Part shown: piece after piece, positions 26,424 to 50,781 of the stretch | How positions within the stretch are numbered: the stretch's first letter is position 1 | How the letters are laid out: each line of letters starts with the position of its first letter | Source of the DNA: Chloroflexus aggregans DSM 9485 | Lineage (GTDB): Bacteria; Chloroflexota; Chloroflexia; Chloroflexales; Chloroflexaceae | Length of the DNA stretch: 64,000 bases | Direction: 5' to 3' | Assembly (NCBI RefSeq): GCF_000021945.1 | Contig: NC_011831.1 | Span: forward strand, 2,555,353-2,619,352 | Program-made: the position numbers and the translations under genes | Notes under the pieces: generated by a model | Databases searched by the model: none | Seen by the model: the letters and a program-made list of their open reading frames with translations, nothing else | What the model was told of the DNA's origin: nothing

Positions 26424-28952
26424 TTATCGTCGCACACGATAGATCACGACTTCATCCTGAGCAAAGACCTGCTCACCCACCTGAGCTAGTGCGGCCAGAC
26501 GGTCGGCCGGATAACGTTCACGTTCGAGAGCACCAATGTAGATATAGTCGATCCGGTACTGTTCGATGAGAGCCTGAATGCGCGCCAGATCGCCACTACG
26601 GTAGATGGTATCGACTGCGAGACAACGCGGGCCGAGTTCGGCCAGTGCCGCCGCGTCACCACCGCGCCACTGCATTTCGTGTCCTACCCATCCCAGCACG
26701 GTAGCATACCCACTCGCTGCGGCCACACCACCGAATCCCTGCCAGTTGTACGAGCCGCCACAACGCGGCGTTTCACTGCCAGACGCGACGGCTGCCTCGT
26801 TTTCGAGAGCCACAGCTTCGAGCACCACACTACCTGCCGGAGCATAGCGCCGCAACCACGAGATCGATGCCGCACCGGCTGCGGTCTGCTCGCGCGGGGT
26901 GTAGCCGTTGAGACCGATCCATGGCCCACGCCCAATATCGCGTACCACGAGCAACGGGTAGATGCTGGCCCCCACCAAGAGCACAGCCCCACACAAACTG
27001 ACGACAACAGCCGCAAACCGTCGCCCCCCGACCGCTCCACCCCACATCCACCACAATCCAACCGGCGCAAGGATGCCCCAGAGGAGCCAAACCTGATAAT
27101 AGAACTTGAAAACGGTATTCATGCGGGCCGATAGACCCTCAAACACATCGCGGATGTAGATAATCTCCACCCCGAAGAGAATGGCACACCCCAAAGCAGC
27201 GATTAGCAGACCGACCCGTACCCCCGTTTCGGCCGCAACAAGAGCACGTTGGCCAAAGACCCAGACCAACCCGGCCAGCGCTATGAGTGGAAAGCCGATC
27301 AGGAGACCGATGACTAACAAGATCACCGGCAACCACGACCACCAACGCGCTTGTGATGAGTCGGATAACGCAACATGATACGCCGGCCGGTACAGATAAC
27401 TACCGGCGATAACCGGTAATCCCATCAGACCAAAGATGATCACGAAGCTGTGCCAACCACTCCGTTCACCCAGATACACACCGATCACACTCGTGAGCCG
27501 ACTGAGAATTGGTACATCCAGCCACGGTGTCGCTCCTCCGACCGGTGAACGAAATGTGAGATGAAAGGGGAGAAAGAGCGCAAACGCCAGCACAGTAATG
27601 ATCACCGCTTCGCGCAACCATGCCCGCCACCCAACGGTGGTACCGACCTGATAGGACATCAACGCCAAACCACCCAAGTAGAGCAACAGATAGGTCGGCA
27701 GATCCCAACTGTTGATAGCGTACAGACTACCGAGAATAATCCCGTGGAGTATCCGCATCAACCAGCCAGCACGACCGGTGGGAAAGAGTGCAGCAACCGA
27801 AGTTACACTATGAGCACTCGCCACCGACGCCTCACCTGCATCAGTATCCGATCTGCTGCCGGGCATATGGCTTGGTGGTGTCGCCACTACCGCCAGCACG
27901 AGGCCAATCGCCAGTGTTGCAAAGGGCAACGCCATCACGTGCGGGTGCATATCACCGAGACGAAAACTGAAAAAAGGGAATTCGGTGATCGTATAGCGTC
28001 GCTCGCGCCGTGGTGGATCACCGGCAACACGGTACCCATCCCACAGTGAACGCGACGGCCACCACCAGTTAAAGTCGTTCCATTTATCGGCACGCCGCCA
28101 ACCGTCAATTATGCCAAAGTCGTGCGGTGCCGTTTGGAGCGGGTATGGCAAGGTGATAAAATCTTCGCCCCGCAGCGCTTGGCCCAATGCTGCGAGGAGT
28201 TGACGATCATCGAGCGCAACCGCACGCTCGTCGCCGGTGAGAACCTGGATCGCACCGGATTGATTACCGGCAACCAAGATGATAACCGCACCAAGCATCC
28301 CCAACACACCACGAATGATCGGTCGTGGTGGATGATTGAGGAGACGGAGCAGTTCGTCAATAATGCCGAAAGCGCCTTGGGCCGTCATTGCAGCCAGGAG
28401 CGCAAGCGACAGGTTGTAGGCAGTCGCCGGCGGCAACCCACTCAACATCGCCGGGATGGACATCAGAAGGTAGCCGAAGTAATAGTAGTTAATGCTGTAG
28501 CCGGCTAACCATGGATCGTGGGGCGGAAATAGGCCACTCCGTTGGATGGCGTTGAAGAAGGCAAAATCCATCGGACGCTCGGTGCCCCACGGGGTCGGAT
28601 CGTGCCCTCGTAACCAGACCACACCAAGTAAGGCCGCGAGAAAGATCGCTTCACCGGCCAGCCATTGCCAAACCGGAGGACGACGATAGTGCTGTCGCCA
28701 AAGCCAAAACCAACCACCACCACCGATCAGCAAACAACAAATCACGATCAGTAGTAGCTCGAAGCGGCCAAGGCCCAGCATCGCCAGTAACCACGTGACA
28801 AAGCCCGTCAGCAGGAGACCAAGTGGACGGGCTAAAGCAATTCCGAGTGCAGGTACATAGCGAAACAGGCGATAGGCCACCGGCCAGCCGATCAGGGCAA
28901 AGAGCTGGGCTATCCCCCACCAAACAACCACCTCGCCGGCAACGCCAATCAT
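26424..28952 (-). CDS. DUF2298 (Chlor_Arch_YYY) membrane protein
   Basis: This 842-residue polytopic membrane protein has one YYY-type domain. Landmarks are DPWLAGYSINYYYFGYLLMS (about residues 145-165), an EFPFFSFRLGDMHPHVMALP loop with a D-x-H-x-H pattern, and RMNTVFKFYYQVWLLW before the last helices; the C-terminal 140 residues form a soluble domain ending in YIYIGALERERYP. The family is known from Chloroflexi and archaea and is thought to be GT-C-like, but its reaction is unknown to me. The ATG overlaps the stop of the 2,501-residue upstream gene by 4 bases (ATGA), so the two are translated together. It is a third copy of a domain present twice in that neighbour. Confidence 0.85.
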   Translation of the reverse strand: MIGVAGEVVVWWGIAQLFALIGWPVAYRLFRYVPALGIALARPLGLLLTGFVTWLLAMLGLGRFELLLIVICCLLIGGGGWFWLWRQHYRRPPVWQWLAGEAIFLAALLGVVWLRGHDPTPWGTERPMDFAFFNAIQRSGLFPPHDPWLAGYSINYYYFGYLLMSIPAMLSGLPPATAYNLSLALLAAMTAQGAFGIIDELLRLLNHPPRPIIRGVLGMLGAVIILVAGNQSGAIQVLTGDERAVALDDRQLLAALGQALRGEDFITLPYPLQTAPHDFGIIDGWRRADKWNDFNWWWPSRSLWDGYRVAGDPPRRERRYTITEFPFFSFRLGDMHPHVMALPFATLAIGLVLAVVATPPSHMPGSRSDTDAGEASVASAHSVTSVAALFPTGRAGWLMRILHGIILGSLYAINSWDLPTYLLLYLGGLALMSYQVGTTVGWRAWLREAVIITVLAFALFLPFHLTFRSPVGGATPWLDVPILSRLTSVIGVYLGERSGWHSFVIIFGLMGLPVIAGSYLYRPAYHVALSDSSQARWWSWLPVILLVIGLLIGFPLIALAGLVWVFGQRALVAAETGVRVGLLIAALGCAILFGVEIIYIRDVFEGLSARMNTVFKFYYQVWLLWGILAPVGLWWMWGGAVGGRRFAAVVVSLCGAVLLVGASIYPLLVVRDIGRGPWIGLNGYTPREQTAAGAASISWLRRYAPAGSVVLEAVALENEAAVASGSETPRCGGSYNWQGFGGVAAASGYATVLGWVGHEMQWRGGDAAALAELGPRCLAVDTIYRSGDLARIQALIEQYRIDYIYIGALERERYPADRLAALAQVGEQVFAQDEVVIYRVRR

Positions 28953-31900
28953 GGCTGCCCCCCTTCGAGGTTGCGCAGCATCACCGTTGCTTCCCCAGCC
29001 CAGCGTCCATCAGGGGCCAACTGCAAATAGCGCTGTAGCGCATCTCTGGCGAGGACGGGCTGGTTGCGGAGCATGAACAGGCGGGCAAGCTGAAAATACG
29101 GATCAGGTAAGGCCGGATCAATGCTCATCGCCTGCCCTAGGGCAATCTCAGCCTTATCGAGCCGCCCCCAATCGATCAACGCTGTCGCTAATTTGTTGTA
29201 GTTGCCGGCAGTGGGACTAGCCTGTACCGCTGCCAGATACGCTTTCTCTGCTTCGTCATACCGCCCAAGATCGGCCAAGATGTCACCCCACAGATGATGT
29301 AAACCGACATCACTGGGGTTGGCCGCAGCAGCCGTCGCCAACACCTGCGCCGCCTCACTCAGCCGTCCTTGTTGGCGATACACATCGGCTAAACCAAAGG
29401 CAAGAGAACCATTGGTCGGATCGGCAGCAACGGCAGCCTCTAACTCGGACACATCCACCGATGGTTCGTTAGGAGGTGGTGGCGGTGGTACCGGCTGCAC
29501 CACCGACGTCGTCTCGGCACGCAACAGACGGTAACTGTCGGGCAAGCCGGTTACGGCATAGATCGCTACCCCATCTTGTTCGTACACCGGTCGTAAATAG
29601 CGATCGCGCAACGCTGCGAACTTGGTCATGCCTTGAGGATAGAAGGCATGCTCAACTCCACCAACATAGACATAATCAACGTTGTAACGGGCGAGAATCC
29701 GCAACGCTGTTTCCGGGTCACTCGTGGTGTAGAAGGTTTCAATATCGCGAACCCGCCGACCGGTGACGACCGGATCACGCTGTTCGTCGGCGTGCAACGC
29801 ACTGATGACCGTTGGCAGGCCGGTGGCGGCAGCAACCCGAATACCATAGGCACGGTAGAACCAGAGGCTCGATTGAACAATGACCGGTGTTCCAACAATC
29901 TGCTGGTTGAGCCAGCGGATCGCCGCCGCATCACCGCTGAGATCGACCTGCACCATCGAAGTATCCGGCGCACAGCCGCCAAACGCATTGCAGTCGTAGG
30001 TGAAAGTAGCGTGCTGCATAAAAGCCATCCCATCGAGCGTCAGACCGGTCGTGACCGGGAAGCGGGTGACAATCCGCGAAGGAATGGCAACCGGGAGATA
30101 GCTCGCTGCCATCAGCGCCGGTATCGCCAAGATGGTCAACATCGCCGCACGGGCCGGTTGACCACCGCGCCGGTTCAACCACTGCAACAGTCTTGGTAAG
30201 AGGCCGGCAGCCGCAAGGCTGAGTAACACCCAAATATGCAACCCAAATTTAAAAACCGTGTTCATGCGATACCAATCGCTGCCGTCGAGATGGTCACGGA
30301 TATAGACGATCTCAACCCCCAACGATACGGCCCACGCTAACCAGGCAAGGAGGAGAGCATACCATGCCGGCGCCCCGGTAGCCCGTCGCACCAACAGCAC
30401 ACTGGTGAGACTAAGAATAACGAGGAGGATAAAACGCAAAGCCAGCTCTGGCAATGCCGCACCGACAATCAGAACTACCCCTATCCCGCTCAACAACAAT
30501 GCCCATGCACGCCCCGGTAGGAAGCGCTGCCAGCGTTTTACGGCTGCTCCGCAGACCACCGGCACAATGATTACGAGTGGCAGACCATACAGCAGGAAGT
30601 AAGCAAATGGTAGTGTGGCGTGCGTCGTTACCAGGCCAATCCCACGAACCATTGGCCAGTAACGGTCGAAGAAGGGAGCGAAGAGCAAGAGCGACCCGAC
30701 ACCTAACCCAATAGCTTTGACCATCGCCGACGTGAGTGCCGGCCAGCGCCATCCATGCCATCGCACCGCACCGGCAATAATCGCTATCCCTGATAGCAAG
30801 CTGTAGGTCGGAAAATCCCACGAATTGGTCGCCGCTAGCGTGCCCAGGGTCAGTGCCGTCAGCATCCAGAGTGAACGAGACTGTATATGGTGTCGCTCGA
30901 TCAGTCGCCATGCACACCCAATCGCCAACAACGAGAGAGGAAGGGTGATGAGATGCGGATGGAGATCGGCATAGAGAAAACTGAAGAGCGGAAACTCATT
31001 GATAGTGTACGGAATGACTCGACTAGGCCCGACAAACCAATCCCCAAGGAGTTCAGCATTACCGCTCAGCAGCAGACGCAAACCACTGACACCTTGCGAC
31101 CAGCCTGCGGCAAGTATCGCTGTCAGATTACCGGCCAACCCGATCAACGCTAACGCGACAATCCCATACCGTCGCCGACCACCTAATTGTTGCCCTAGCT
31201 CATAGGCCCCCGCCAACAGTATGCCAAAGAGTGTAGCCAGCGCTAGATTAAAGCCAATCGCCGAATCGAGACCGAGTATCTTGATCGGCAGCGACATCAG
31301 GTAGAGACCGTAGTAATAATAGTTGATGTACCCATTGCTGTAGAACGGATCGTAGGGTGGCATCACCGGACTACGCAGGATCGCATTGAGGAACCCTTGC
31401 TCCATCGGTTTCTCGCCACCCCAAACCGGATGCCACAGGTCGGGATTAAGCGCACGGATCAACGTCATCGCCGCAAACCCGGCGAGAAAGATCAGTTCAG
31501 CGGGCACGATCGCTCGCCATGCAGCACGATGAGGCCGAATACCACGCCCCCAGAGCGCAAGGTTAAGGCCGACCATCGCGGCCAAACCACCGATCAGCCC
31601 CACCGTATCGTAGCGCCATATGCCAAGGCTCGTCGGTAGCCAGATCGCATAGCCGAGCATAATCAACCCGACCGGACGCGCCCACGCCAAACCATACCGG
31701 CCTAGTGCCGTGTATGCCGGCAATGCCCCCAGGCCGGCGATTACGTACCACACCAGTAGCCATGCCACAACCGCCAACCACTGCTGTTCGTTCAACAACG
31801 CATTCCAACCCAATCGCCCAACAGCCGGCAACTCTTGAACCGGTTGGGCTAATTCTAGGGCCGGTGTGGTACGTTTGCTCGGCGGGCGAATCGGTAGATC

Positions 31901-34900
31901 GTTGGTCAGCATCCGTGGTTGACCCGGCGAACGCACGCGATACAGCACGCTCTCGCCCTGTTGGAAGGCAAGGATCAAGTCGCCACGTGCGGCGAGCGCA
32001 GCAAATTTGGCCAGTCCTTCAGCGCTGTACAGTTGTCGCTCGACCCCACCGATATAGACGTACTCAACTCCATAACGACGCAGGGCATCCAGTGCGGTAT
32101 CGGGATCGGGTGTGTTATAAATGGTTGCAATCGTCTGCTGCCGATGTGTAATGACCGGTCCGGCATTCACGGCACTCCGCTGCTGAATCTGGTGCCATTC
32201 CCAACCGAGAATGGTGGGTAAACCGGTGAAGGTTGCAATTCGTCCGGCCCACTGGTACGAAGGTTGGTGTGCTTCGAGGATAATCGGCGTTCCACGCGCG
32301 TTGCGCCGGAGCCAATCAATGACGGCAGCATCTTCATCGAGTGAGTACGCCGGACCGTTACGTGCAGCGGTGATATTGGCAAAAAAAGCCATACCGTCGA
32401 GGGTATGCGGCGCGTCGCGATCCCAGCGATCGGCAAGACGAGCAGGGGTAGCAGTAAGCGGGTAGACCAACCCGGCAGCTAGCAGCAGACCCACCCCAGC
32501 ACGCAATGACCAACACCATTGATGCGCCAACCGTGCTGTCGCCGCCCACAACCATGGCATTGCCGCTGCGGTAGCTAATGCTAATAGCATCCATGCATGG
32601 AGACCGAATTTGAAGACGGTATTCATCCGGCCCACATCGCCGCGTACCACGACGACCTCAACCAACACCCATAACCCGATCCCGCCGAGTGCCCACAGTG
32701 CAGGTATCAGAACGGTGAAAGGCCACTGCCGCATCCGCCAGAGTAACCAGATAGATACGACCAGTAGGCCAACCAACGGAACAATGGCCGGTACGTTAAA
32801 CACTAGTGCGATCAAGAAAACCGCCAACAAGCTTGCTACGATTAGTAAGGAGATTCCGCGCCGCCACGTCCACAACCCGATCACGATCAACCAGATCGCC
32901 AACCAATGACCGCCGATCTGTACAAGCTGACTCGTTGTCGTTCGTTCGGCAGCGAGGATTGCCGCTAGTAAGGTAGCACCCGCGCCACGCCACACCTCGA
33001 TCCCACTCGAGTCGGTCGCAAAGTTGGCAATAAATGGAGCAAAGAGTAGATTCCCGATGAGTGCCGGTGCTACACCAACTCCTAGTGCGACTAAGACCGT
33101 CGCCGGCCATCCCCAACCGGCACGCCGTTGGTGGCGTGCGGTCGCCACCGCCAACAACAAACCGGCCACCCCAACAAACGTCGGGTAATCCCACGTATTG
33201 GTGGCACGGATCGCACCGGCAACCAAACCCAACCACCCTATCAACCACCAATGAGTGGCTCCACCTGTACGCACCCACGCCAGCCCCAAGCCTAACGCAG
33301 CCAGGCTGAGTGGCATCACGATCATATGTGCGTGCAGATCGGCAAAGAGGAAGGTAAAAAACGGAAACTCGTTAATTGTCCCCGGAGTAATGCGTGTCGC
33401 ATCCCAGAAAGCCCACTCCAGCCGACCCTTCGCTGCCTGTTTGGCAGCATACCCACTCAGGAACCAACCGGCTTGGGCCAGATTACCGAGCAACAACATC
33501 AATCCCGGTGCAAGCACACCGGCCACTACGGCAGTACGTTCACGCCGGAGTTGCGGGAGACGCGGAGCGAGGAGATTATAGACGACGCCAAATGCACCGA
33601 ATGCGGTTAGGGCAAAGATTGTGGCTACAGCGAGATTATAGCCAACTGCCGGGGCGACCCCGCTGAGATGGATCAAGGCCCCAACGAGCACAAACCCAAA
33701 ATAGTAATAATTAATGTAGCCACCAGCGTGCCACGGGTCGAGAGGAGGAAACGCCGCACTGCGCAAGACGGCGTTCAGATAAGCGAAATCCATCGGCTTT
33801 TCCCCACCACGGGCCGGATGCCACAGATCGGGGTTGAACCAACGCAACGTCACGCCGAGCAGCAGAAAGCCGATGAAGAGCGTCTCGGCTATCAGCAGCG
33901 CCGGCAAACGCTCTTGCCAAATACGACGCAAGGTGTAACGTGCGCGCCAACCGACAACTGCACCTATCCCCAACAACCCTATACCTATCGTCCACAAGGT
34001 AACAGGGGCAAAGGGCGCAAGCTGCAAGCTGCCGGCCAGCCATGCCAGATACGCAACCAGGAGCAAGCCACTAATCTTAGCAAGGGTGAAGCCGCGATCG
34101 GGTAACCGGTGTAGGTGTGGTCCGATCAGGGCGAAAACGGCCAAACCAAGCGCCTCGATCCAGAACACCCAGAGCAATGGCGCAAACGGATTGGTACCCA
34201 GCCAAGACCACCAATCGCCACCGGCTGCATAACGTGGCCAAACACTATCGGTCAAGCGCAGCGCCGTCGGATTGCGATCGGCAATCTGGAGCGGTGATTT
34301 ATAGACTTCCCCCCACTCAACCTCAGCCGTAATCAATTGCTCGGCTCGCTCGCGGCTATAGAGCGGTGTTTTGCGAAAGATCAACACACGGGGATGATCG
34401 TAGACGGTGAACGCCTCTTCGGCCATCCAGTCGGGCAACCGAATCCCGAGCACGGTCGGGTAGGAGGTGATTTCTGCGACTAATTCAAAGCCGAGTTCAC
34501 CGGTAAACAGGCTATGGTAATACCGCATGAGCGCCGGGTAGCGCATACGCAAGCGCGACGTGCTATCGTAAACCCGGTTACTCGTGAGGGTGATATAATC
34601 GGCACGGTCGAGTTGATCGAGCAAACCAGGCTCACCGCCTTGACCGACATACTTAGCCGGTTCGTCTTCGGCATACGGTGATGAGTCGATTCCAAAGAAG
34701 GTAATCCCCCACGCCGCATTGGCGGTAGCTTGGAGCGGCAGCGGATCATCCCAACGTTCCGAGATCACAAAACTTCCGGGCGGGGCGTGTTCGGCCAACC
34801 AACGAGCCGCTTGTACCCGCGAATGAGGCACCGTATAGATACGGGAGAAGGCATAAGCCCAAAGCGCAGTCGCAATCAATACCACCGGCAAAGCCCAGCG

Positions 34901-36454
34901 CGCTGCCCAAGCTAACCCACGGCCGGCAACCACTGCCCACGAACGTAACGACGCTACGGCTTTCGTCGCGCGCCGACGCCCCCAGCGCCCTAGCACGACC
35001 AGCGCCCACGCCCCCAGCACGGTCAGCGCACCGTAGATCGGTAATAGATAGCGCATCGTGATGGCAAACTGGCTACCCTGCCAACCGAAGTAGAAGGCAA
35101 CCCACACCCATAGCACCCATGCCGGATGCCACGGACGCCCGATCTGTGCCGATGGATGCACGGCCCACTGCCACCCGCCGCGCCGAACATAACGCCCGGC
35201 AAAGAGCAACCAGCCCCCCCACGCCGCTAATCCCAACGGCAGACCCATTCCCCAAAGCACCATATTTTGCCACGGGAACAGGTAAGCTGGCCGTCCTACC
35301 CACTGCTGCCCGGGGGGGAAATCATACTCGCCGGTTACCAATGCGCGCACTGTGATCAGATTTTCGCGAAAGCGTGGATCAAGTCGAATATCAAAAAATC
35401 CGGCACCATCCAAGATCGATGGGCTATCGATAAGCGGTGAATCGGGTCGTGAACCGATAAACGCATCAGGCGCTAAGCCTCGAAACGTTAGTACTGTAGC
35501 AATCCCGGCAACGACGAGCAACCACATCTCACGTTGCCAGAAACGATCAAACAGCGCGTGCCAACGTTGCCCCCGCAACGCACGCTGTGCCGCGATGAAC
35601 GCTGCGACAATCGCCAAACCACCGATCGTCGCCATGGTTATCCGGTTCGCCGTTGCCGCGCCGATACTCATCCCCAACGCGACATACACACCGACACCGC
35701 CACCCTGTGCCGCACGTACCGTCCAATACAGCGCCAGTAAGCAGAAAAACGTCGAAAAAGCCGGATCAACGAAAAAGTGGCTCTGCTGAATATGCATGAC
35801 CGTCAGCGCCGTCAACAGGGCGGCGAGCAAACCGATGCGCCGACCAAACAGCCGTCTGCCGATCAAGTAGACGAGCACCACACTACCGAGATCAAACACG
35901 ACGGCTAAGGCACGGCCGATCTTTACAATCTCACTATAGGTGGTTAAATTGACGCCATCAGGATTAAGCCACCAGAGTAGCGGCAGGAAGCGCGGCCAGT
36001 TCCGTTCAGGGTTTGCCACCGGCGGCCCGTAATCGGTTCGCCGTTCTTGTGGCGCTGTCGGATCGGCGCCAAGTCGTGGCGGACCTTCAATGGAGGGTAC
36101 CTGGGCCGGCAACACCTCGGCAGGCGTCAGCATGACAGCAACTACCCGCGTCAGCATAATCGGCAGCGGCCCATAGACATAGAGCGGAAATTGTTCGTAA
36201 TTACGTGGGTTAAGCGGTGAACGGCTTGAGTCGTAGAATTCACCGAGATCACTCGGCAGACGGACGGTCGAGGCAACGTAGGTAAAAAAGCGCTCGTCAG
36301 GATGCTGACCGGTACCGCTATCCCAATCAAAAAGGTTGAGAGTACGGAAGTAGAGTGCCAACAGTAAAATGGCCGCCAGCCCAAGGCGGACGACCCATAC
36401 AGCGGAGCGATTGAGAGCCTGTCGCACGGTGGTTCTCACAAGATGTATTGCCAA
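28949..36454 (-). CDS. Giant membrane protein: PMT-like + two DUF2298 (YYY) domains + TPRs
   Basis: This 2,501-residue frame has no internal stop. Parts in order: residues 1-770, a GT-C/PMT-like multi-helix domain with DWDSGTGQHPDERFFTYV near the N-terminus; about 790-1470, YYY domain 1 with GGYINYYYFGF near 913, FADLHAHMIVMPLS and RMNTVFKFGLHAW; about 1510-2300, YYY domain 2 with NGYINYYYYGL near 1708, YADLHPHLITLPLS and RMNTVFKFGLHIW; then a Pro-rich spacer and four or so TPR units (about 2336-2495). Each YYY domain ends with a YVYIGGVE-type soluble segment. The start given is a TTG without a ribosome site; a GTG at 36439 is an alternative. It probably makes or modifies a surface glycan or lipid-linked sugar, judged only from the GT-C-like fold. 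Confidence 0.82.
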   Translation of the reverse strand: MAIHLVRTTVRQALNRSAVWVVRLGLAAILLLALYFRTLNLFDWDSGTGQHPDERFFTYVASTVRLPSDLGEFYDSSRSPLNPRNYEQFPLYVYGPLPIMLTRVVAVMLTPAEVLPAQVPSIEGPPRLGADPTAPQERRTDYGPPVANPERNWPRFLPLLWWLNPDGVNLTTYSEIVKIGRALAVVFDLGSVVLVYLIGRRLFGRRIGLLAALLTALTVMHIQQSHFFVDPAFSTFFCLLALYWTVRAAQGGGVGVYVALGMSIGAATANRITMATIGGLAIVAAFIAAQRALRGQRWHALFDRFWQREMWLLVVAGIATVLTFRGLAPDAFIGSRPDSPLIDSPSILDGAGFFDIRLDPRFRENLITVRALVTGEYDFPPGQQWVGRPAYLFPWQNMVLWGMGLPLGLAAWGGWLLFAGRYVRRGGWQWAVHPSAQIGRPWHPAWVLWVWVAFYFGWQGSQFAITMRYLLPIYGALTVLGAWALVVLGRWGRRRATKAVASLRSWAVVAGRGLAWAARWALPVVLIATALWAYAFSRIYTVPHSRVQAARWLAEHAPPGSFVISERWDDPLPLQATANAAWGITFFGIDSSPYAEDEPAKYVGQGGEPGLLDQLDRADYITLTSNRVYDSTSRLRMRYPALMRYYHSLFTGELGFELVAEITSYPTVLGIRLPDWMAEEAFTVYDHPRVLIFRKTPLYSRERAEQLITAEVEWGEVYKSPLQIADRNPTALRLTDSVWPRYAAGGDWWSWLGTNPFAPLLWVFWIEALGLAVFALIGPHLHRLPDRGFTLAKISGLLLVAYLAWLAGSLQLAPFAPVTLWTIGIGLLGIGAVVGWRARYTLRRIWQERLPALLIAETLFIGFLLLGVTLRWFNPDLWHPARGGEKPMDFAYLNAVLRSAAFPPLDPWHAGGYINYYYFGFVLVGALIHLSGVAPAVGYNLAVATIFALTAFGAFGVVYNLLAPRLPQLRRERTAVVAGVLAPGLMLLLGNLAQAGWFLSGYAAKQAAKGRLEWAFWDATRITPGTINEFPFFTFLFADLHAHMIVMPLSLAALGLGLAWVRTGGATHWWLIGWLGLVAGAIRATNTWDYPTFVGVAGLLLAVATARHQRRAGWGWPATVLVALGVGVAPALIGNLLFAPFIANFATDSSGIEVWRGAGATLLAAILAAERTTTSQLVQIGGHWLAIWLIVIGLWTWRRGISLLIVASLLAVFLIALVFNVPAIVPLVGLLVVSIWLLWRMRQWPFTVLIPALWALGGIGLWVLVEVVVVRGDVGRMNTVFKFGLHAWMLLALATAAAMPWLWAATARLAHQWCWSLRAGVGLLLAAGLVYPLTATPARLADRWDRDAPHTLDGMAFFANITAARNGPAYSLDEDAAVIDWLRRNARGTPIILEAHQPSYQWAGRIATFTGLPTILGWEWHQIQQRSAVNAGPVITHRQQTIATIYNTPDPDTALDALRRYGVEYVYIGGVERQLYSAEGLAKFAALAARGDLILAFQQGESVLYRVRSPGQPRMLTNDLPIRPPSKRTTPALELAQPVQELPAVGRLGWNALLNEQQWLAVVAWLLVWYVIAGLGALPAYTALGRYGLAWARPVGLIMLGYAIWLPTSLGIWRYDTVGLIGGLAAMVGLNLALWGRGIRPHRAAWRAIVPAELIFLAGFAAMTLIRALNPDLWHPVWGGEKPMEQGFLNAILRSPVMPPYDPFYSNGYINYYYYGLYLMSLPIKILGLDSAIGFNLALATLFGILLAGAYELGQQLGGRRRYGIVALALIGLAGNLTAILAAGWSQGVSGLRLLLSGNAELLGDWFVGPSRVIPYTINEFPLFSFLYADLHPHLITLPLSLLAIGCAWRLIERHHIQSRSLWMLTALTLGTLAATNSWDFPTYSLLSGIAIIAGAVRWHGWRWPALTSAMVKAIGLGVGSLLLFAPFFDRYWPMVRGIGLVTTHATLPFAYFLLYGLPLVIIVPVVCGAAVKRWQRFLPGRAWALLLSGIGVVLIVGAALPELALRFILLVILSLTSVLLVRRATGAPAWYALLLAWLAWAVSLGVEIVYIRDHLDGSDWYRMNTVFKFGLHIWVLLSLAAAGLLPRLLQWLNRRGGQPARAAMLTILAIPALMAASYLPVAIPSRIVTRFPVTTGLTLDGMAFMQHATFTYDCNAFGGCAPDTSMVQVDLSGDAAAIRWLNQQIVGTPVIVQSSLWFYRAYGIRVAAATGLPTVISALHADEQRDPVVTGRRVRDIETFYTTSDPETALRILARYNVDYVYVGGVEHAFYPQGMTKFAALRDRYLRPVYEQDGVAIYAVTGLPDSYRLLRAETTSVVQPVPPPPPPNEPSVDVSELEAAVAADPTNGSLAFGLADVYRQQGRLSEAAQVLATAAAANPSDVGLHHLWGDILADLGRYDEAEKAYLAAVQASPTAGNYNKLATALIDWGRLDKAEIALGQAMSIDPALPDPYFQLARLFMLRNQPVLARDALQRYLQLAPDGRWAGEATVMLRNLEGGQP

Positions 36455-36518: not shown

Positions 36519-36785
36519 TTATACACCGGTATCGGCCAATACGGCTACTAAGGCACTAATCTGCTGAAGAGTAACGCCGTGCCAGCACCGTCCACCGGGC
36601 TGCAGCAGCAGATTCGGCCCGATCTGACAGTGATCTTGGCAGCCGCTGCTGATACATTCAACCCGATCAAGCAATCCATGTTGCCAGAGGGCCTGTTCGA
36701 GCGCCATACGCAGCTCTGCCGCACCACGACTGCGGCAATTGGGACCCATACACAAATAGAGGCGAACCATCACCGTCTCATCCAT
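36519..36785 (-). CDS. Small thioredoxin-like [2Fe-2S] ferredoxin
   Basis: This protein of 88 residues has the pattern of the thioredoxin-fold [2Fe-2S] ferredoxins (also found as the NuoE C-terminal domain): CMGPNC near the N-terminus, RGAAELRMALEQAL, then SGCQDHCQIGPNLLLQPGG and a closing Trp/Tyr-x-Gly-Val segment. The four cysteines that bind the cluster (C-x4-C and C-x3-C) are present. An ATG five codons further in (36770) is also possible. It starts 77 bases after the end of korB on the same strand, so it may be the electron acceptor of that oxidoreductase; this is an inference from position. Confidence 0.75.
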   Translation of the reverse strand: MDETVMVRLYLCMGPNCRSRGAAELRMALEQALWQHGLLDRVECISSGCQDHCQIGPNLLLQPGGRCWHGVTLQQISALVAVLADTGV

Positions 36786-45032: not shown

Positions 45033-46997
45033 TTATGGTGACGTCTCGGCAAGTCGAATAATCCGCGGTGCAATGGTGAGGGTCAAGATATCGGTGATCG
45101 GCAGTTCTTGTCCCGTTGCATCGTAGATAGCTCGCGGTGGCGCCGGCAACACAAACGTTCGTTCTTTGCCATCGCTGCTCCACACCACGATCACATCACC
45201 GCTCGGCGTGCGAAAACGATAACCCTCCAAACCGGTATCATCCACTGCACGCACATACCGTGCCTCACCAAGTTGCTGACGCAAAAACCGGAAAGCCCGA
45301 AACGCCGGTTGCGGCTGCTGCCGATCATCGAGCAAGCCACCCTCTTGCCAGCCGGGCCCGTTGAGCGTATACCAATGCGACATCAGCAGATCGGCAGCCA
45401 ACGTGCGGGCATACAGCCGCGCTACTGCATCGGCCTTTGCCTCCTCGAAACCGTTGGGCCGGCAATTCGGCGAGCTACGGTAACAGAGCAACGCCCCTTC
45501 GTTCATGATCACCGGCTTAGCGTAGCCATAATGAGCAAGCACCGACCGCAGGTAAACAAGTTTACCCAGCGTTGCACCACCTCCATCAGCCCACGCCGGA
45601 TGCTCACGGTCAGGATCGCGATGAACGGCAAAGTACGCGTAAGCGTGATACGCCAGAATATCGAAGTAATCACCACCCCCGGCGCGCAGCACCCCTTCAA
45701 AGAAGCGTCCAGCATTACATGGTTCATTATTGCGAACGGCATGATCCGGTGAGCATGCGAGCAGTAAACCACCAAAAATCACCTGTGCCTGCGGATCGGC
45801 AGCTTTGATCGCCGGATAGGCCACTTTAAGCATTGCGGCGTAGGCAGCACCACCGTAATTATCGGGATCGCTTTCATCGCCCCAACAACCAAACGGCGCA
45901 TCACTACCAACAAGCTGAAACGGGGCATCAGGTTCATTGCCCAATTCCCAAAACTTGACATTGTACGGTGGCCGGCTGTAGCGTGTCACAAGTTCGGTAA
46001 GAAAAACGGCGAACTCAGGCAGCGCATCTGACCGGATCGAACCACATGCTGAACGAGACTGGGCCTGCGCCCACGTCGGTGTACCACGCACAATGACCAT
46101 CGGTACAGCACCGCTTGCGCTAATCAGGCGCAACTCGGTCTCAACCTCCTGCAACGCTGCCCAATTACGCACCCCACGGTTCGGCTCGACCTCATCCCAG
46201 CGAATGCCGTTGTAGCGCACCCAATCAGCTCCCAGTTCGGCCAACTGCGTGGCGGTAGCGGCGACCATACCGCGATTGATCTCGACGCCGAACACCGACC
46301 GCCCGGCCCGCAGATCGGGCAATGGCTGTGGTGAGGTATATAACTCACGCCCCAACAGCCCCAGTAACACCCGCGAATGAGCCGGATTTTGTGGATGCCA
46401 TTCGAAACGGGCCCGCTCGAACCACTGGGTCAACACCAGATCGCCATTTGCATTCCGTTCCATCTGCGGCGCGGTGAGGGGATAGCCAAACAACGCCAGT
46501 GATTGGGCATAACGGCTAAGACCGGGAATGCGCAGACCATTATTCTGCCAATAGGTGCGAAACCCATTGCCCGGCTCTTGATCACACACATTATGACCGG
46601 TCTCTGGAAACCACAAGCAACCGGGTTGCGGGCCGGGGTCGGGTGGGTCGGCAAACAGATCACGACCGGCCCGCGCCAACGCCTCGGCTCCCATGCGCCC
46701 GATCTGGATGCGATAGGCCGGCGGGTTGGCCGGATGCAATTCCAAGCGGTTTCGTTCTGTCCATTGGACGGTTAAGGTACGGCCTTCATCGCCAACAAAC
46801 TGTTCCAGCGGACTGATCGGGTAACCAAACACCGGCAAACCACCATTGTCACGCCAGTAGGTAGCGAACGATGGGTGCAGACAATTATCGATCAACGGCA
46901 CATCGGGAAAACAGATTGGCGTGGCTGATTGAGCAGTTACCGGTGATGCCCAAGCAAGCAGGGACATGATGACGCTCAACAAGATGATGAGTTGCAT
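45033..46997 (-). CDS. Secreted clan GH-A glycoside hydrolase (GH39-like) with N-terminal repeats
   Basis: This 654-residue protein has a signal peptide (about 1-23, hydrophobic core then PVTAQS). Residues 25-260 hold two copies of a repeat with the pattern C-F/W-P...F..YW..NGGL..FGYP(I/L)(S/T), common in exported proteins of this phylum. The (beta/alpha)8 domain follows from about 265 (RSVFGVEINRGMV), with the acid/base E355 in WELGNEPD and the nucleophile E500 in VIMNEGALL, as in GH39/GH5-like enzymes. A small C-terminal beta domain ends the protein. The start at 46997 is chosen over the ATG two codons upstream because of GGAA spacing. The substrate is unknown. It follows a GT-C-type membrane protein gene by 63 bases. 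Confidence 0.72.
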   Translation of the reverse strand: MQLIILLSVIMSLLAWASPVTAQSATPICFPDVPLIDNCLHPSFATYWRDNGGLPVFGYPISPLEQFVGDEGRTLTVQWTERNRLELHPANPPAYRIQIGRMGAEALARAGRDLFADPPDPGPQPGCLWFPETGHNVCDQEPGNGFRTYWQNNGLRIPGLSRYAQSLALFGYPLTAPQMERNANGDLVLTQWFERARFEWHPQNPAHSRVLLGLLGRELYTSPQPLPDLRAGRSVFGVEINRGMVAATATQLAELGADWVRYNGIRWDEVEPNRGVRNWAALQEVETELRLISASGAVPMVIVRGTPTWAQAQSRSACGSIRSDALPEFAVFLTELVTRYSRPPYNVKFWELGNEPDAPFQLVGSDAPFGCWGDESDPDNYGGAAYAAMLKVAYPAIKAADPQAQVIFGGLLLACSPDHAVRNNEPCNAGRFFEGVLRAGGGDYFDILAYHAYAYFAVHRDPDREHPAWADGGGATLGKLVYLRSVLAHYGYAKPVIMNEGALLCYRSSPNCRPNGFEEAKADAVARLYARTLAADLLMSHWYTLNGPGWQEGGLLDDRQQPQPAFRAFRFLRQQLGEARYVRAVDDTGLEGYRFRTPSGDVIVVWSSDGKERTFVLPAPPRAIYDATGQELPITDILTLTIAPRIIRLAETSP

Positions 46998-47060
46998 TGA
47001 CATTTCCGGTGCGATGTAAATACGCCAAAGTAGGGTACCAGGTATCGGCACAGGTTTATC

Positions 47061-48521
47061 TTACCAACGACATTGGTAGATCGTCAATGGTTGTGGATAG
47101 CGCGGATCGGGGATAGTGGCAACAACCGGACAACGTTCGACCAGATCGGGGCGATGGCTCAGTAACGGCAAAGCCTGTTCTTGCCATACCAGATAATCGG
47201 GATGATAGAACTCAAGTGCGTAAGAGGCCGCAGCGACAAAACCACCCGTTCCCAACTGAGCGGCTATATCTGGCTGTAACAAACCGGCAATATCGACCAT
47301 TGGGCGTTGCGCATAATAGCCGATGATCCCTATTTCAAGTGCTGCAACGCGCGCATCCGGTGGTGTATGCGCAGCTAACCATTCACCGGCAGCACGATAG
47401 ACTGTCAACCGCGGATCGATTTGTTGGCCAATTCGATAGACGGCACCGCTGAACCATGCGATAGTAACACCTACCAGAACAATTAATCCGATAGTTGCTA
47501 GTCTTTGACCGCCGAATCGCTGCAACCAATCGATCACCGTTTGCACACCCAAACCAAAAGCTGGCGCCAGACCGATTAAAAGCGGAGCAACGTACCAAAA
47601 GTAGCCGGCAACGTGCAAAACGGTGTACGCCAGCCCGTATAAAACCGCCCACCCAATCGGAAATAACCAATACGGCGTGCGAATCGTTGCGACGAGACCA
47701 AGACCGGCCAATCCGAAGACCGCCTGATACAACGGCTGGCGAAGATACTCCGACAACGTAACCCACAATCGATCACCAAAATCGTAAAAGCCGGGGATGA
47801 GTGCCTGTTGCTGTTTGGCATACAGCGTTACCGGAAGCGGTATACCGTAGACCATCCATGCCAAACCAAGACCAGCGGCAACAATAATGATCCAGAGCAG
47901 CGCCGCTTTCCACGGCCAACGCTGCCACTGACGCCAAGCACCACCGGATACGACCATCATGAGCAGTGCTACCGGCCCGGCCAGCACACCATCGGGCCGC
48001 AGCCATACCGAGACGCCTAAGAGAAAACCGGTCAACCACTGCCGGCCTTGCGCCGCACAGACAAAACTCCATAACGTCAATGCCATTGCCGGCATCGTTT
48101 CACTGCCCACAGTCGTTAACGGAAGGGGAAAGAACACGTAAAGCAGGGCAGCCATTATCCCGGCGAGTTGGTTACCCCACCGGTCACCGAGATACCACAA
48201 CGCCAACCCACCGGAGGCATGACTCAAACAACCCACGAGGTTAGCAACAAGGGGTACAGGCCAACCCCAGAACGCTACCGGTGCCAGGATTAGCCCAAAG
48301 AGTGGTGTCGTAGTACTTAGTGTTGCAGTACCGGGATTGTAGACAAAGCCATAACCGGCGGACAGATTGGCTGCGTAACGGTAGGTGATGTACGGATCAT
48401 CGTAGCCGCGTCGGAATAAGACCGCGAATAAGCCTAATCCGACGATCATTGCCGCTACCCAAGCCAAGTATGGCTCCCTCACCGTGCTACCTAGCCGGAT
48501 AATGGTTTGTTTGATTTTCAC
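47061..48521 (-). CDS. GT-C-type polytopic membrane protein (mannosyltransferase-like)
   Basis: This 486-residue protein has about ten membrane segments. The first loop contains RRGYDDPYITYRYAANLSAG, with the DD pair and Tyr-rich context found in GT-C glycosyltransferases related to ArnT and PMT; the loop GSETMPAMAL and the segment VWLRPDGVLAGP further in fit this family. The C-terminal soluble part (about 375-486) ends with YPQPLTIYQCRW. It probably transfers a sugar from a polyprenyl-phosphate donor on the outer face of the membrane; donor and acceptor are unknown. It is divergent from the first SulP gene and upstream of a secreted glycosidase. Confidence 0.7.
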   Translation of the reverse strand: MKIKQTIIRLGSTVREPYLAWVAAMIVGLGLFAVLFRRGYDDPYITYRYAANLSAGYGFVYNPGTATLSTTTPLFGLILAPVAFWGWPVPLVANLVGCLSHASGGLALWYLGDRWGNQLAGIMAALLYVFFPLPLTTVGSETMPAMALTLWSFVCAAQGRQWLTGFLLGVSVWLRPDGVLAGPVALLMMVVSGGAWRQWQRWPWKAALLWIIIVAAGLGLAWMVYGIPLPVTLYAKQQQALIPGFYDFGDRLWVTLSEYLRQPLYQAVFGLAGLGLVATIRTPYWLFPIGWAVLYGLAYTVLHVAGYFWYVAPLLIGLAPAFGLGVQTVIDWLQRFGGQRLATIGLIVLVGVTIAWFSGAVYRIGQQIDPRLTVYRAAGEWLAAHTPPDARVAALEIGIIGYYAQRPMVDIAGLLQPDIAAQLGTGGFVAAASYALEFYHPDYLVWQEQALPLLSHRPDLVERCPVVATIPDPRYPQPLTIYQCRW

Positions 48522-48669: not shown

Positions 48670-50781
48670 ATGCTTTCCTTTGGACACTCGGTCGCTCAGC
48701 TCTTCACCCGACCGGTCAGACTGGTTCGCAGCTTCACCCCCGAAACCCTGCGTGCCGACTTTCTTGCCGGATTGACCGTCGGATTGGTCCTGTTACCGCA
48801 ATCGCTTGCCTTCGCGCTATTAGGTGGTTTACCACCCATTACCGGCTTGTATACTGCATTGACCGCTACTATTGTCGGTGCATTGTGGGGGTCGTCAAGT
48901 CATCTCAATAGTGGACCAACAAACACAGCGGCCATTATCACTTTATCGGTTCTAGCTCCGGTTGTCCGCATCGACAGCCCGGAGTTTGTCACGGCAGCGA
49001 GTTTGGTTGCGGTAATGGCCGGTATTATCCGGGTTATCATGGGTATTGCTCGCCTTGGCATCTTGGTCAATTTTGTCTCTGATGCGGTATCGGTGGGATT
49101 TACCGCCGGCGCTGGTATTTTGATACTTTCAAATCAAATCGGCCCATTGTTACGCATCGATCTCCCACCCGGTGCCGATCCCATTACGACGGTTACCGAA
49201 ACAGCTCGTCACCTTGATGCCATTCACTGGCCTTCGTTAGCGGTAGGAGTGGCTACGATTGGCATCATTTTGTTTTCACCACGCATCACCCGCAAAATAC
49301 CGTCCGTCTTGATTAGTATCGTGATCGTTTCACCGATCGTCTGGTTCCTCAATCTCAAAGCGCAGGGTGTGCGAGTAATGGGACCGGTACCACCGGGTTT
49401 TCCACCGCTGGCCCAGTTACCGATCTTCGATCTAGATCTGATCAGCCATCTGTTGAATGGCGCGTTGGCACTAGCTATTATCGGCTCGGTAGAGGCAGTT
49501 GCAATTGCACGAGCAATTGCCGGCTATACCGGTGAGCGTATTGACAGCAACCAAGAGTTTGTCGGACAGGGGTTGGCCAACATCGCCTCTGGCATCTTTT
49601 CAGGAATGCCATGCTCAAGTTCGTTCAATCGCTCGGCATTGGCCTATCAGTCGGGAGGCCAAACGGCTCTTACCGGGGTTGTATCCGGGATAACAGTTTT
49701 TCTGGCAACCACCGTCCTCGGTCCGTTACTGGCCGAAGTCCCGCGGGCGGCATTGGCCGGCGCATTGGCGGTGACCGCTTGGAGTATGGTTGACCGCCGG
49801 AATATGGCGCGGATTTGGCGCGGGTCACGCAGTGAGGCAGCTATTATGATCATCACGCTCGTCCTCACCCTGACCCTCCCCCTCCAATTCGCCATCCTCA
49901 CCGGTGTGCTGATGTCGCTCGGCTATTACCTCCTCCGTACCGCTACCCCGCGCATTGAAGCCGTCGTCCCCGACACAGCGTTCCGCCATTGGGACCCCGC
50001 CCACGGCCGTCCCACCTGCCCTCAGCTCCTCGTCGTCGACCTCCAAGGCGACCTCTACTTCGGCGCCGCCAGCCACGTCGAAGAAGCCTTGCTCCGCCTC
50101 CTCGACCAGCACCGCACTGTCCGCTACCTGCTCCTCCGAATGCACAGCGTCAATCACTGCGATGTCAGCGGCATTCGTGCCCTCGAAACCATCCGCCGCA
50201 CCCTCCGCGTCCGCGGTGGCGACCTCTACTTCGTCCGTGTGCGTGCCGGCGTGATGTATCGGATGCAGATCAGCGGCTTTTATGAGCAACTCGGCCCCGA
50301 ACGCTTCCTCGATGAAGATACCGCCATCGAGTTCCTCTTCCACCGCGTCCTCGACCCCGCCGTCTGCATCTACGAATGCGACCGCCGCGTCTTCCGCGAA
50401 TGCCAAGCATTGCCCAAACAGACGCTGCCCGGCCACTTGACCATCCCGCTGCTCGACGGCAAGCTGCCGGCCCAGATCAATGCCCGCGCCTTGTGGGAAG
50501 CATTGCATAGCCCGCAACCGCCGGCGGTCATCGACGTGCGTGAACCGCGCGAGTTTCAGCGCGGCCATATTCCCGGTGCGCGCAACATCCCGCTCTCGCG
50601 GCTGCTCAGCGAGCGTGATACCGTGCCGGCGGGGCCGGTCGTGCTGGTCTGTCGTAGCGGAAGGCGCAGCTTACGGGCAGCAGCGTTGCTGGTTGAACGC
50701 ACCCCCCCGCCGCAGGTGCTGGAGGGCGGGATGCTCGCGTGGGAAGCCGCCAACCTGCTCGAAGCCGTTGAGCAGGCGTGA
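48670..50781 (+). CDS. SulP-family anion transporter with STAS and rhodanese domains (copy 1)
   Basis: This 703-residue inner-membrane protein has three parts. A SulP transporter domain (about 25-430) opens with DFLAGLTVGLVLLPQSLAFA and has GGLPPITGLYTA and the FSGMPCSSSFNRSAL loop. A STAS domain (about 455-560) includes LQGDLYFGAASHVEEALL and NHCDVSGIRALE. A C-terminal rhodanese domain (about 600-700) has VIDVREPREFQRGHIPGARN and the active-site C661 in VCRSGRRS. It likely carries sulfate or another oxyanion; a rhodanese tail suggests a link to sulfur chemistry. A second copy follows 241 bases downstream. From 49834 to beyond the stop it is almost identical to that copy, while the first 390 codons have diverged. 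No ribosome site is obvious. Confidence 0.88.
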   Translation: MLSFGHSVAQLFTRPVRLVRSFTPETLRADFLAGLTVGLVLLPQSLAFALLGGLPPITGLYTALTATIVGALWGSSSHLNSGPTNTAAIITLSVLAPVVRIDSPEFVTAASLVAVMAGIIRVIMGIARLGILVNFVSDAVSVGFTAGAGILILSNQIGPLLRIDLPPGADPITTVTETARHLDAIHWPSLAVGVATIGIILFSPRITRKIPSVLISIVIVSPIVWFLNLKAQGVRVMGPVPPGFPPLAQLPIFDLDLISHLLNGALALAIIGSVEAVAIARAIAGYTGERIDSNQEFVGQGLANIASGIFSGMPCSSSFNRSALAYQSGGQTALTGVVSGITVFLATTVLGPLLAEVPRAALAGALAVTAWSMVDRRNMARIWRGSRSEAAIMIITLVLTLTLPLQFAILTGVLMSLGYYLLRTATPRIEAVVPDTAFRHWDPAHGRPTCPQLLVVDLQGDLYFGAASHVEEALLRLLDQHRTVRYLLLRMHSVNHCDVSGIRALETIRRTLRVRGGDLYFVRVRAGVMYRMQISGFYEQLGPERFLDEDTAIEFLFHRVLDPAVCIYECDRRVFRECQALPKQTLPGHLTIPLLDGKLPAQINARALWEALHSPQPPAVIDVREPREFQRGHIPGARNIPLSRLLSERDTVPAGPVVLVCRSGRRSLRAAALLVERTPPPQVLEGGMLAWEAANLLEAVEQA

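Follow-up and report, generated by a model that had tools for sequence, protein, structure and literature searches.

A giant fusion of PMT-like, DUF2298 and TPR modules in Chloroflexus aggregans: predicted GT-C folds and a candidate role in surface glycan synthesis

GT-C glycosyltransferases that decorate bacterial glycans outside the cytoplasm draw on polyprenyl-phosphate sugars (PMC11127046, partial text). In A. fulgidus AglB, the metal ligands are Asp47 of the first DXD motif together with Asp161 and His163 of the second, which reads Asp-His-His, and Arg426 lies close to the phosphate site (PMC8342417, partial text). The TMTC enzymes have lumenal tetratricopeptide repeats (TPRs), with one N-terminal membrane region ahead of them (PMC7801869, partial text). 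Here these systems are compared with a gene of Chloroflexus aggregans DSM 9485 that lies in a stretch of 64,000 nucleotides (NC_011831.1, positions 2,555,353 to 2,619,352; the window). It encodes a fusion of an N-terminal PMT-like module (N), two copies of the YYY domain, also called DUF2298 (YYY-A and YYY-B; TIGR03662, PF10060), and a TPR tail, and the next gene encodes a third YYY copy.

Pfam calls DUF2298 uncharacterized, and the family is named in a gene table (PMC8756737, partial text). The literature searched holds nothing naming TIGR03662, TIGR03663, PF10060, COG5427 or Chlor_Arch_YYY, which fits the statement in an earlier note on this DNA that no function was known for DUF2298 proteins; a search on tandem GT-C fusions gave nothing relevant among the results listed, and searches on the wall polysaccharide of Chloroflexus contributed no paper to this comparison. 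For AglS of Haloferax, considered as a characterised relative, the papers listed offered no connection. The layout itself is known: an extra N-terminal region, a double YYY and TPRs, with TIGR03663 genes nearby, are presumably already in the NCBIfam documentation. New here are the assignment of a GT-C fold from predicted models, the comparison between YYY motifs and those of AglB, the finding that among the places scored the full fusion is limited to one order, and the counted gene neighbourhood.

An unbroken frame for a giant membrane protein

The fusion is a real, conserved giant membrane protein. The earlier note, which gave no strand, had described one unbroken 7.5 kb frame joining a PMT-like domain, two YYY domains and TPRs; the frame is indeed uninterrupted, lies on the minus strand and runs for 2,501 codons counted from a TTG (all feature coordinates are collected in Table 1). 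The plus strand over the same interval is full of stops.

Could so long a frame, opening with TTG, result from a frame error or from the chance joining of neighbouring genes, as the note itself had allowed? Six relatives of the genus match the fusion nearly end to end at 78-83% identity, and their frames run for 2501-2534 codons with zero internal stops. Because these relatives hold open frames of similar length, a frame error is excluded, and the probability of such an explanation is close to nil; the GC content by codon position, even throughout the frame, points the same way. A long frame arising by chance is ruled out by the domain scores and by conservation. In a seventh relative (G301), only parts of the fusion are among the matches listed. 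Because the matches in the six relatives start at residue 3-6, and because in three of them no start codon of the frame precedes the one at residue 6, the GTG at codon 6 (window position 36439; codon 10 is also GTG) may be the true start rather than the TTG. At 64 bases upstream of the fusion lies a small minus-strand frame of about 83 residues (36519-36770), which by eye resembles a thioredoxin-like 2Fe-2S ferredoxin.

DUF2298 is found by Pfam in two stretches of the fusion (whole-protein E 6.1e-249, 827.3 bits against a cut-off of 27.8), as is Chlor_Arch_YYY (TIGR03662) by NCBIfam (1384.3 bits, cut-off 300.25). PMT_2 (PF13231) is not listed in the Pfam scan of the full-length fusion; when the N-terminal 752 residues were scanned alone, it matched at 38 bits (cut-off 26.1). 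The next gene had been said to be coupled by a 4-base overlap and to add a third YYY domain. The overlap reads ATGA, and the product of 842 residues scores 697.1 bits in NCBIfam (E 3.5e-209) and 411.2 bits for DUF2298 in Pfam (cut-off 27.8). All three copies are thus far above the family cut-offs. They share 37-40% pairwise identity, carry the motif NYYY (residues 915-918 and 1711-1714 of the fusion, 155-158 of the third YYY protein) and account for all three DUF2298 matches in the genome, which is a single contig of 4,684,931 bases.

Predicted folds and candidate active sites

Do these modules resemble known glycosyltransferases? The earlier note had supposed them to be GT-C-like, and structure prediction upholds this for N and YYY-A, whose AlphaFold models reach a pLDDT of 92.0 and a pTM of 0.92 (N) and a pLDDT of 91.0 and a pTM of 0.93 (YYY-A). 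The N profile matched Pmt1 (E 1.9e-5) and STT3A (E 2.7e-5) among PDB sequences. In structural comparison with VIA-align, all 50 rows listed for N are GT-C proteins or a GPI-transamidase subunit, which we take to be GT-C-like, with Pmt2 (6p25_B) at Z 28.1 over 410 aligned residues and a root-mean-square deviation (rmsd) of 4.2 A. Pmt1/2/4 (GT39) are the best fold match of N and have a similar Asp-Glu pair in outer loop 1. However, N matches PMT_2, with neither PF02366 nor a MIR domain listed, and it is fused to YYY modules.

The YYY profile matched no sequence of a solved structure (best E 0.37); triosephosphate isomerase rows in that search, where nothing was better than this value, were taken as chance. 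Foldseek returned six matches to the YYY-A model at E <= 0.001, three to DPY19, one to AftA and two to AglB, with TM-scores of 0.31-0.43 of the query length, AftA being highest. By VIA-align, YYY-A aligns with yeast STT3 (8agc; Z 17.2, 492 residues, 7.7 A), CeDPY19 (7zlh; Z 14.7, 492 residues, 7.5 A), AftA (8if8; Z 14.2, 498 residues, 5.0 A) and the C-terminal domain of AglB-S2 (3vu0; Z 9.7, 120 residues, 2.6 A). Rows 1-46 of this list are GT-C proteins, an AglB domain or the GPI-transamidase subunit, at Z 17.2 to 8.1, and the first unrelated row stands at Z 7.3. AftA and the Emb enzymes share the GT-C fold, and the AftA alignment starts from YYY-A residue 35, taking in extra helices before the core, but identity over the structural alignment is about 14%. 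These models point to a GT-C glycosyltransferase fold for both N and YYY-A. The same fold is probable for YYY-B and the third YYY, judging by their identity to YYY-A.

Among 65 aligned YYY sequences, E145 is conserved in 64 (Asp in the other), D299 in 63, H303 and K542 in 64, and D166, H301, R536 and N538 in all 65; E885, D1039, H1041, R1276 and K1282 are the conserved residues of YYY-A in fusion numbering. The motifs are kept in all three copies of the window and, with few exceptions, in the paralogue classes. GTEKFMD, NYYY, GDLHAH, NYWD and RANTTFK are found again in a Lachnospiraceae relative whose identity is 26-29%. The helix order of the model, assigned by hand, puts the conserved residues at three places: outer loop 1, the start of core helix 4, and core helix 12 or the stretch just ahead of it. 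Compared with A. fulgidus AglB, the Asp-Leu/Met-His of YYY has an equal Asp-x-His spacing at what the model suggests, by helix order, is the matching place. The STT3/AglB/PglB enzymes (GT66) share with YYY the predicted fold, an outer C-terminal domain and an Arg/Lys on the outer side of a late helix. Their W-W-D-x-G (WWDYG) motif is found in none of the 65 YYY sequences and is absent from both window proteins, and YYY is therefore not taken for a canonical oligosaccharyltransferase. STT3 (PF02516) is not listed by Pfam for the fusion or the next gene; the genome has one match, below cut-off and elsewhere. A TIXE look-alike in YYY (TINE/TITE) is not claimed as the TIXE motif of AglB: it lies in the second outer loop, the AglB motif in EL5.

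In N, the HPDE motif, including D53 and E54, is invariant, and an acidic residue stands at 230 or 231 in 44 of 44 sequences. With the loop taken from the models, an acidic residue of outer loop 1 is present in both module types (D53/E54 in N, E145 in YYY). In addition, K542 of YYY is matched to R468 of N when the two profiles are aligned (E 8.3e-5, probability 60.6%).

On which side of the membrane would the ends of a YYY module lie? In the YYY-A model, three helices are followed by a 13-helix core and then a globular end domain. Because three helices precede the core and the globular domain comes at the end, a YYY module is predicted to start and end on the outer side. It could thus be joined behind N, or behind another YYY, at the outer end without a change of topology, and the termini being on the same side would place the TPRs outside the cytoplasm. 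With 11 helices in N and 16 in each YYY, one chain would cross the membrane about 43 times. Charge bias agrees with this topology: in loops shorter than 60 residues, Lys and Arg account for 5 of the 37 inner residues and for 9 of the 129 outer ones. The succession of GT-C helices and TPRs on the non-cytoplasmic side, a side given here by the helix count, recalls TMTC1-4, which to our knowledge carry no YYY. These enzymes differ in having just the one membrane region before the TPRs (PMC7801869, partial text), and DUF1736 is not listed for the fusion.

It is likely that the fusion and the next gene encode an outward-facing, lipid-carrier-dependent multi-GT-C glycosyltransferase complex for surface glycans, a predicted activity. 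Within such a complex in the cytoplasmic membrane, N would be a PMT-like transferase and each YYY/DUF2298 module a GT-C transferase of a distinct family. Their fold class suggests that the active sites face outward and take sugars from polyprenyl-phosphate carriers. The loop-1 Glu, the Asp-x-His of core helix 4 and the Arg/Lys in or just ahead of core helix 12 would together make up a site like that of AglB, holding a divalent metal and the carrier phosphate, metal use being argued by analogy. With both termini outside, a YYY module could be added to another GT-C protein, which would account for the fusions. By analogy with TMTC, the outer TPR tail probably keeps an acceptor, either protein or glycan, close to the active sites, and the product would most likely be a surface glycan or a glycoprotein coat. 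This scheme builds on the observed frame and its conservation, on the folds predicted for N and YYY-A, on the near-invariant motifs and on the glycan genes found near YYY in relatives; from these we infer activity, donor, acceptor, metal and the cooperation between modules. The hand-over of a substrate between modules and the recruiting of partners by the TPR tail, both raised in the earlier note, are hypothetical parts of it.

Distribution and gene neighbourhood in relatives

Of 301 genomes sampled from the phylum, 204 match DUF2298 (201 over the cut-off; 138 of 217 among the better genomes), and in the class all 61 sampled do. Matches also occur in 14 control genomes, in two of them, which are both archaeal; the genome of Haloferax volcanii has one. 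Among 555 confirmed relatives, the best 80 include no archaeal title, only Chloroflexota-type names and one labelled Singulisphaera, and a single archaeal plasmid match covers 26% of the query, with no annotated gene there.

The survey of DUF2298 architectures proposed in the earlier note was run over 60 hand-picked places of 20 kb or less, scored with profiles built from two alignments: 21 places in the window's order, counting the window itself, and 39 outside it, with L078 dropped from the tally. A gene unseen in one stretch may sit elsewhere in the genome. In the order, N-YYY-YYY-TPR followed by a YYY gene occurs at 18 places, and N-YYY-YYY-TPR stands alone on its contig at one. Outside the order there are N-YYY with a separate YYY (22 places), N-YYY (nine), YYY alone (seven) and two YYY genes (one). 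Among the places scored, the full fusion is confined to the window's order. At the remaining two places of the order, in related genomes, the fusion gene is, by sequencing error or decay, split into several frames (L064, 4084-12280) or its frame is lost before the TPRs (L067, 6894-15482). A second N-module-like protein, of 1257 residues and without YYY, lies a few kb from the fusion in a related genome (L070:15254-19024).

The earlier note had regarded modules kept as separate, unlinked genes in relatives as evidence against a joint machine. This is found in part: the second YYY is separate or unseen outside the order, the lone YYY genes belong here, and in some genomes, such as G192 and G013, fused and separate genes lie on different contigs. 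Conversely, N and YYY are fused at 31 of the 39 places outside the order. Forty stretches hold a pair of one fused and one separate YYY gene, and in all 40 pairs the separate gene follows downstream in the same orientation (at 150 bases or less in 29, with a 4-base overlap in nine). Further DUF2298 copies lie elsewhere in several genomes of the window's order. In a tree of 120 domains, fused and standalone YYY are separated with a support of 0.996; the standalone copy is therefore an ancient paralogue of its fused counterparts. Within the order, module A forms one clade and module B another (support 1.0 each), and their relation to each other is weakly supported (0.72-0.82).

Have the second YYY and the TPRs of this order a catalytic part at all? 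The predominance outside the order of N-YYY, with or without a separate YYY, would suit a non-catalytic lineage addition, with N-YYY and the separate YYY as the working unit. This is unlikely, however, as module B keeps the equivalents of E145, H301, R536 and K542 in all 20 sequences from the order; the second YYY has thus not decayed.

The surface-glycan role put forward in the earlier note fits the neighbourhoods in relatives. Clusters of neighbouring genes were drawn from 141 stretches (some genomes twice), each labelled from one representative; those beside YYY include a methyltransferase, PMT_2-like and TIGR03663-like GT-C proteins, GT4, a flippase-like protein and an epimerase. Outside the order, 33 of 40 YYY loci have another GT-C gene nearby, compared with one of 40 arbitrary regions and one of 20 places in the order, by profiles that were partly built from the tested places. 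The arbitrary regions come from 21 of the same genomes, and ten of the 40 regions are from genomes of the window's order. With profiles built from other loci only, GTC2, Agl23 and GTC1 were found at 30, 25 and 13 of the 40 loci, at 0, 0 and 1 of the 40 controls and at 0, 0 and 1 of the 20 places in the order; a few of the source loci share a genome with the tested ones, and the GTC2 and Agl23 models recognise overlapping sets. When the genome's own unlinked Agl23-like pair served as the query, a relative was found at 25 of 40 loci, 0 of 40 arbitrary regions and 0 of 20 places in the order. This pair consists of two adjacent TIGR03663 genes far from the fusion (L238:5510-11474), the second with NHL repeats. 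It lies at 4.23 Mb, over the TIGR03663 cut-off, and genes nearby look by eye like those of bacteriochlorophyll synthesis.

The frequent company of TIGR03663-like genes outside the window's order also bears on another possibility, that the YYY modules are GT-C-derived flippases or scramblases of lipid carriers and that N alone transfers sugar. NCBIfam titles TIGR03663 'flippase activity-associated protein Agl23', and purified Haloarcula Agl23, assumed here to belong to TIGR03663, moved lipid-linked oligosaccharide in liposomes (PMC11182771, partial text). Such a role for YYY is distinctly improbable: YYY keeps the full acid/His/basic set on the catalytic side of the GT-C fold, for which a flippase has no obvious need, and NCBIfam lists the Agl23-type TIGR03663 neither for the fusion nor for the next gene.

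The YYY gene of the Lachnospiraceae relative stands among genes for GT2, an aminotransferase, a glucosyltransferase, an O-antigen ligase and sugar-epimerase or sugar-nucleotide functions. The O-antigen ligase and sugar-nucleotide genes would suit a special case of the glycosyltransferase complex, a wall-polysaccharide assembly line like that of mycobacterial Emb/Aft, with no protein acceptor and the TPRs as a mere scaffold. AftA is also among the longest structural matches of YYY and has the top TM-score in Foldseek. On the other hand, STT3 and PMT matches equal or outscore AftA, the TPR tail is reminiscent of GT-C enzymes whose acceptors are proteins (TMTC; PMC7801869, partial text), and no polymer is known as the product. 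This special case is possible, if somewhat unlikely.

Several observations weigh against the proposed glycosyltransferase complex. The Foldseek TM-scores of the YYY model are modest and the longer VIA alignments have an rmsd of 5-8 A; middling Z values can arise by chance between helical membrane proteins, and a fold by itself shows no activity. The placement of the motifs at a putative active site follows helix order in a model, and the profile alignment of YYY with N, at 60.6% probability, is limited to the final core helices plus the C-terminal domain. The charge bias that goes with the predicted topology is weak. The literature searched shows no assayed enzyme of the DUF2298 family. Among the neighbours of YYY are also non-glycan genes, for example a sensor-kinase-like cluster and a cytidylate kinase at 20 loci each, and the glycan genes around the Lachnospiraceae YYY gene are on the opposite strand. 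The window's own order has no glycan neighbourhood, another GT-C gene being present at 1 of 20 loci. In the window, the fusion stands beside genes for a CrtO-like oxidoreductase and for subunits of pyruvate:ferredoxin oxidoreductase; it is therefore relatives, and not this locus, that supply the link to glycans.

A bolder form of the proposal is rather unlikely and is offered tentatively: YYY/DUF2298 would be an unrecognised metal-dependent, AglB-like GT-C family, core to the envelope of much of Chloroflexota, and in the window's order the three sites on one chain and the fourth in the next gene would work in sequence on one TPR-held acceptor, as a covalent glycan assembly line outside the membrane. 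The predicted GT-C placement of DUF2298, a family with no assigned function, together with the named conserved residues, opens its role to direct tests. Three apparently intact GT-C sites on a single chain are unusual, and could show how membrane glycosyltransferases cooperate.

Mapped features and other genes of the window

Table 1. Positions, in window coordinates, of the fusion gene, its modules and motifs, and the third YYY gene
Feature	Position	Strand	Residues, motifs and conservation	Basis
Fusion gene: PMT-like GT-C module (predicted), two YYY/DUF2298 modules, TPR tail	28949..36454	-		ORF, Pfam, NCBIfam, relatives
N module, PMT/STT3-like GT-C (predicted)	34190..36454	-	Residues ~1-755; invariant HPDE in first outer loop, invariant R468-Y469	Profile, model, alignment
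HPDE motif of N, proposed catalytic acid	36293..36304	-	Each residue 44/44 aligned sequences	
YYY module A: three extra helices, 13-helix GT-C core, outer C-terminal domain (predicted)	31931..34177	-	Residues ~760-1508	
GGEKPMD, module A	33788..33808	-	Glu 64/65 YYY sequences, Asp in remaining one	
ADLHAH, module A	33326..33343	-	Asp-x-His at fourth core helix	AglB comparison
RMNTVFKF, module A	32606..32629	-	Arg 65/65, Lys 64/65	
YYY module B	29525..31729	-	Residues ~1576-2310; keeps GGEKPME, ADLHPH, RMNTVFKF	
TPR tail after proline-rich linker, probably outside cytoplasm	29009..29449	-	Residues ~2336-2482	Pfam
ATGA, 4-base overlap of fusion gene and next YYY gene	28949..28952	-		
Third YYY gene	26424..28952	-	842 residues; keeps GTERPMD, GDMHPH, RMNTVFKF	

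Across the whole genome, PMT_2 has 20 matches (16 over the cut-off) and Wzy_C eight (seven over). Elsewhere in the window, two tandem frames of equal length, 703 residues each (48670-50781 and 51023-53134), differ at 407 of 2112 bases; the first encodes a sulfate permease with STAS and rhodanese domains. The interval 45033-48521 includes the gene for a protein of 672 residues that by eye resembles a secreted glycosidase, with no Pfam match at E 0.001. This gene adjoins one for a PMT_2-type membrane protein on the same strand, and the two may form a small glycan pair.

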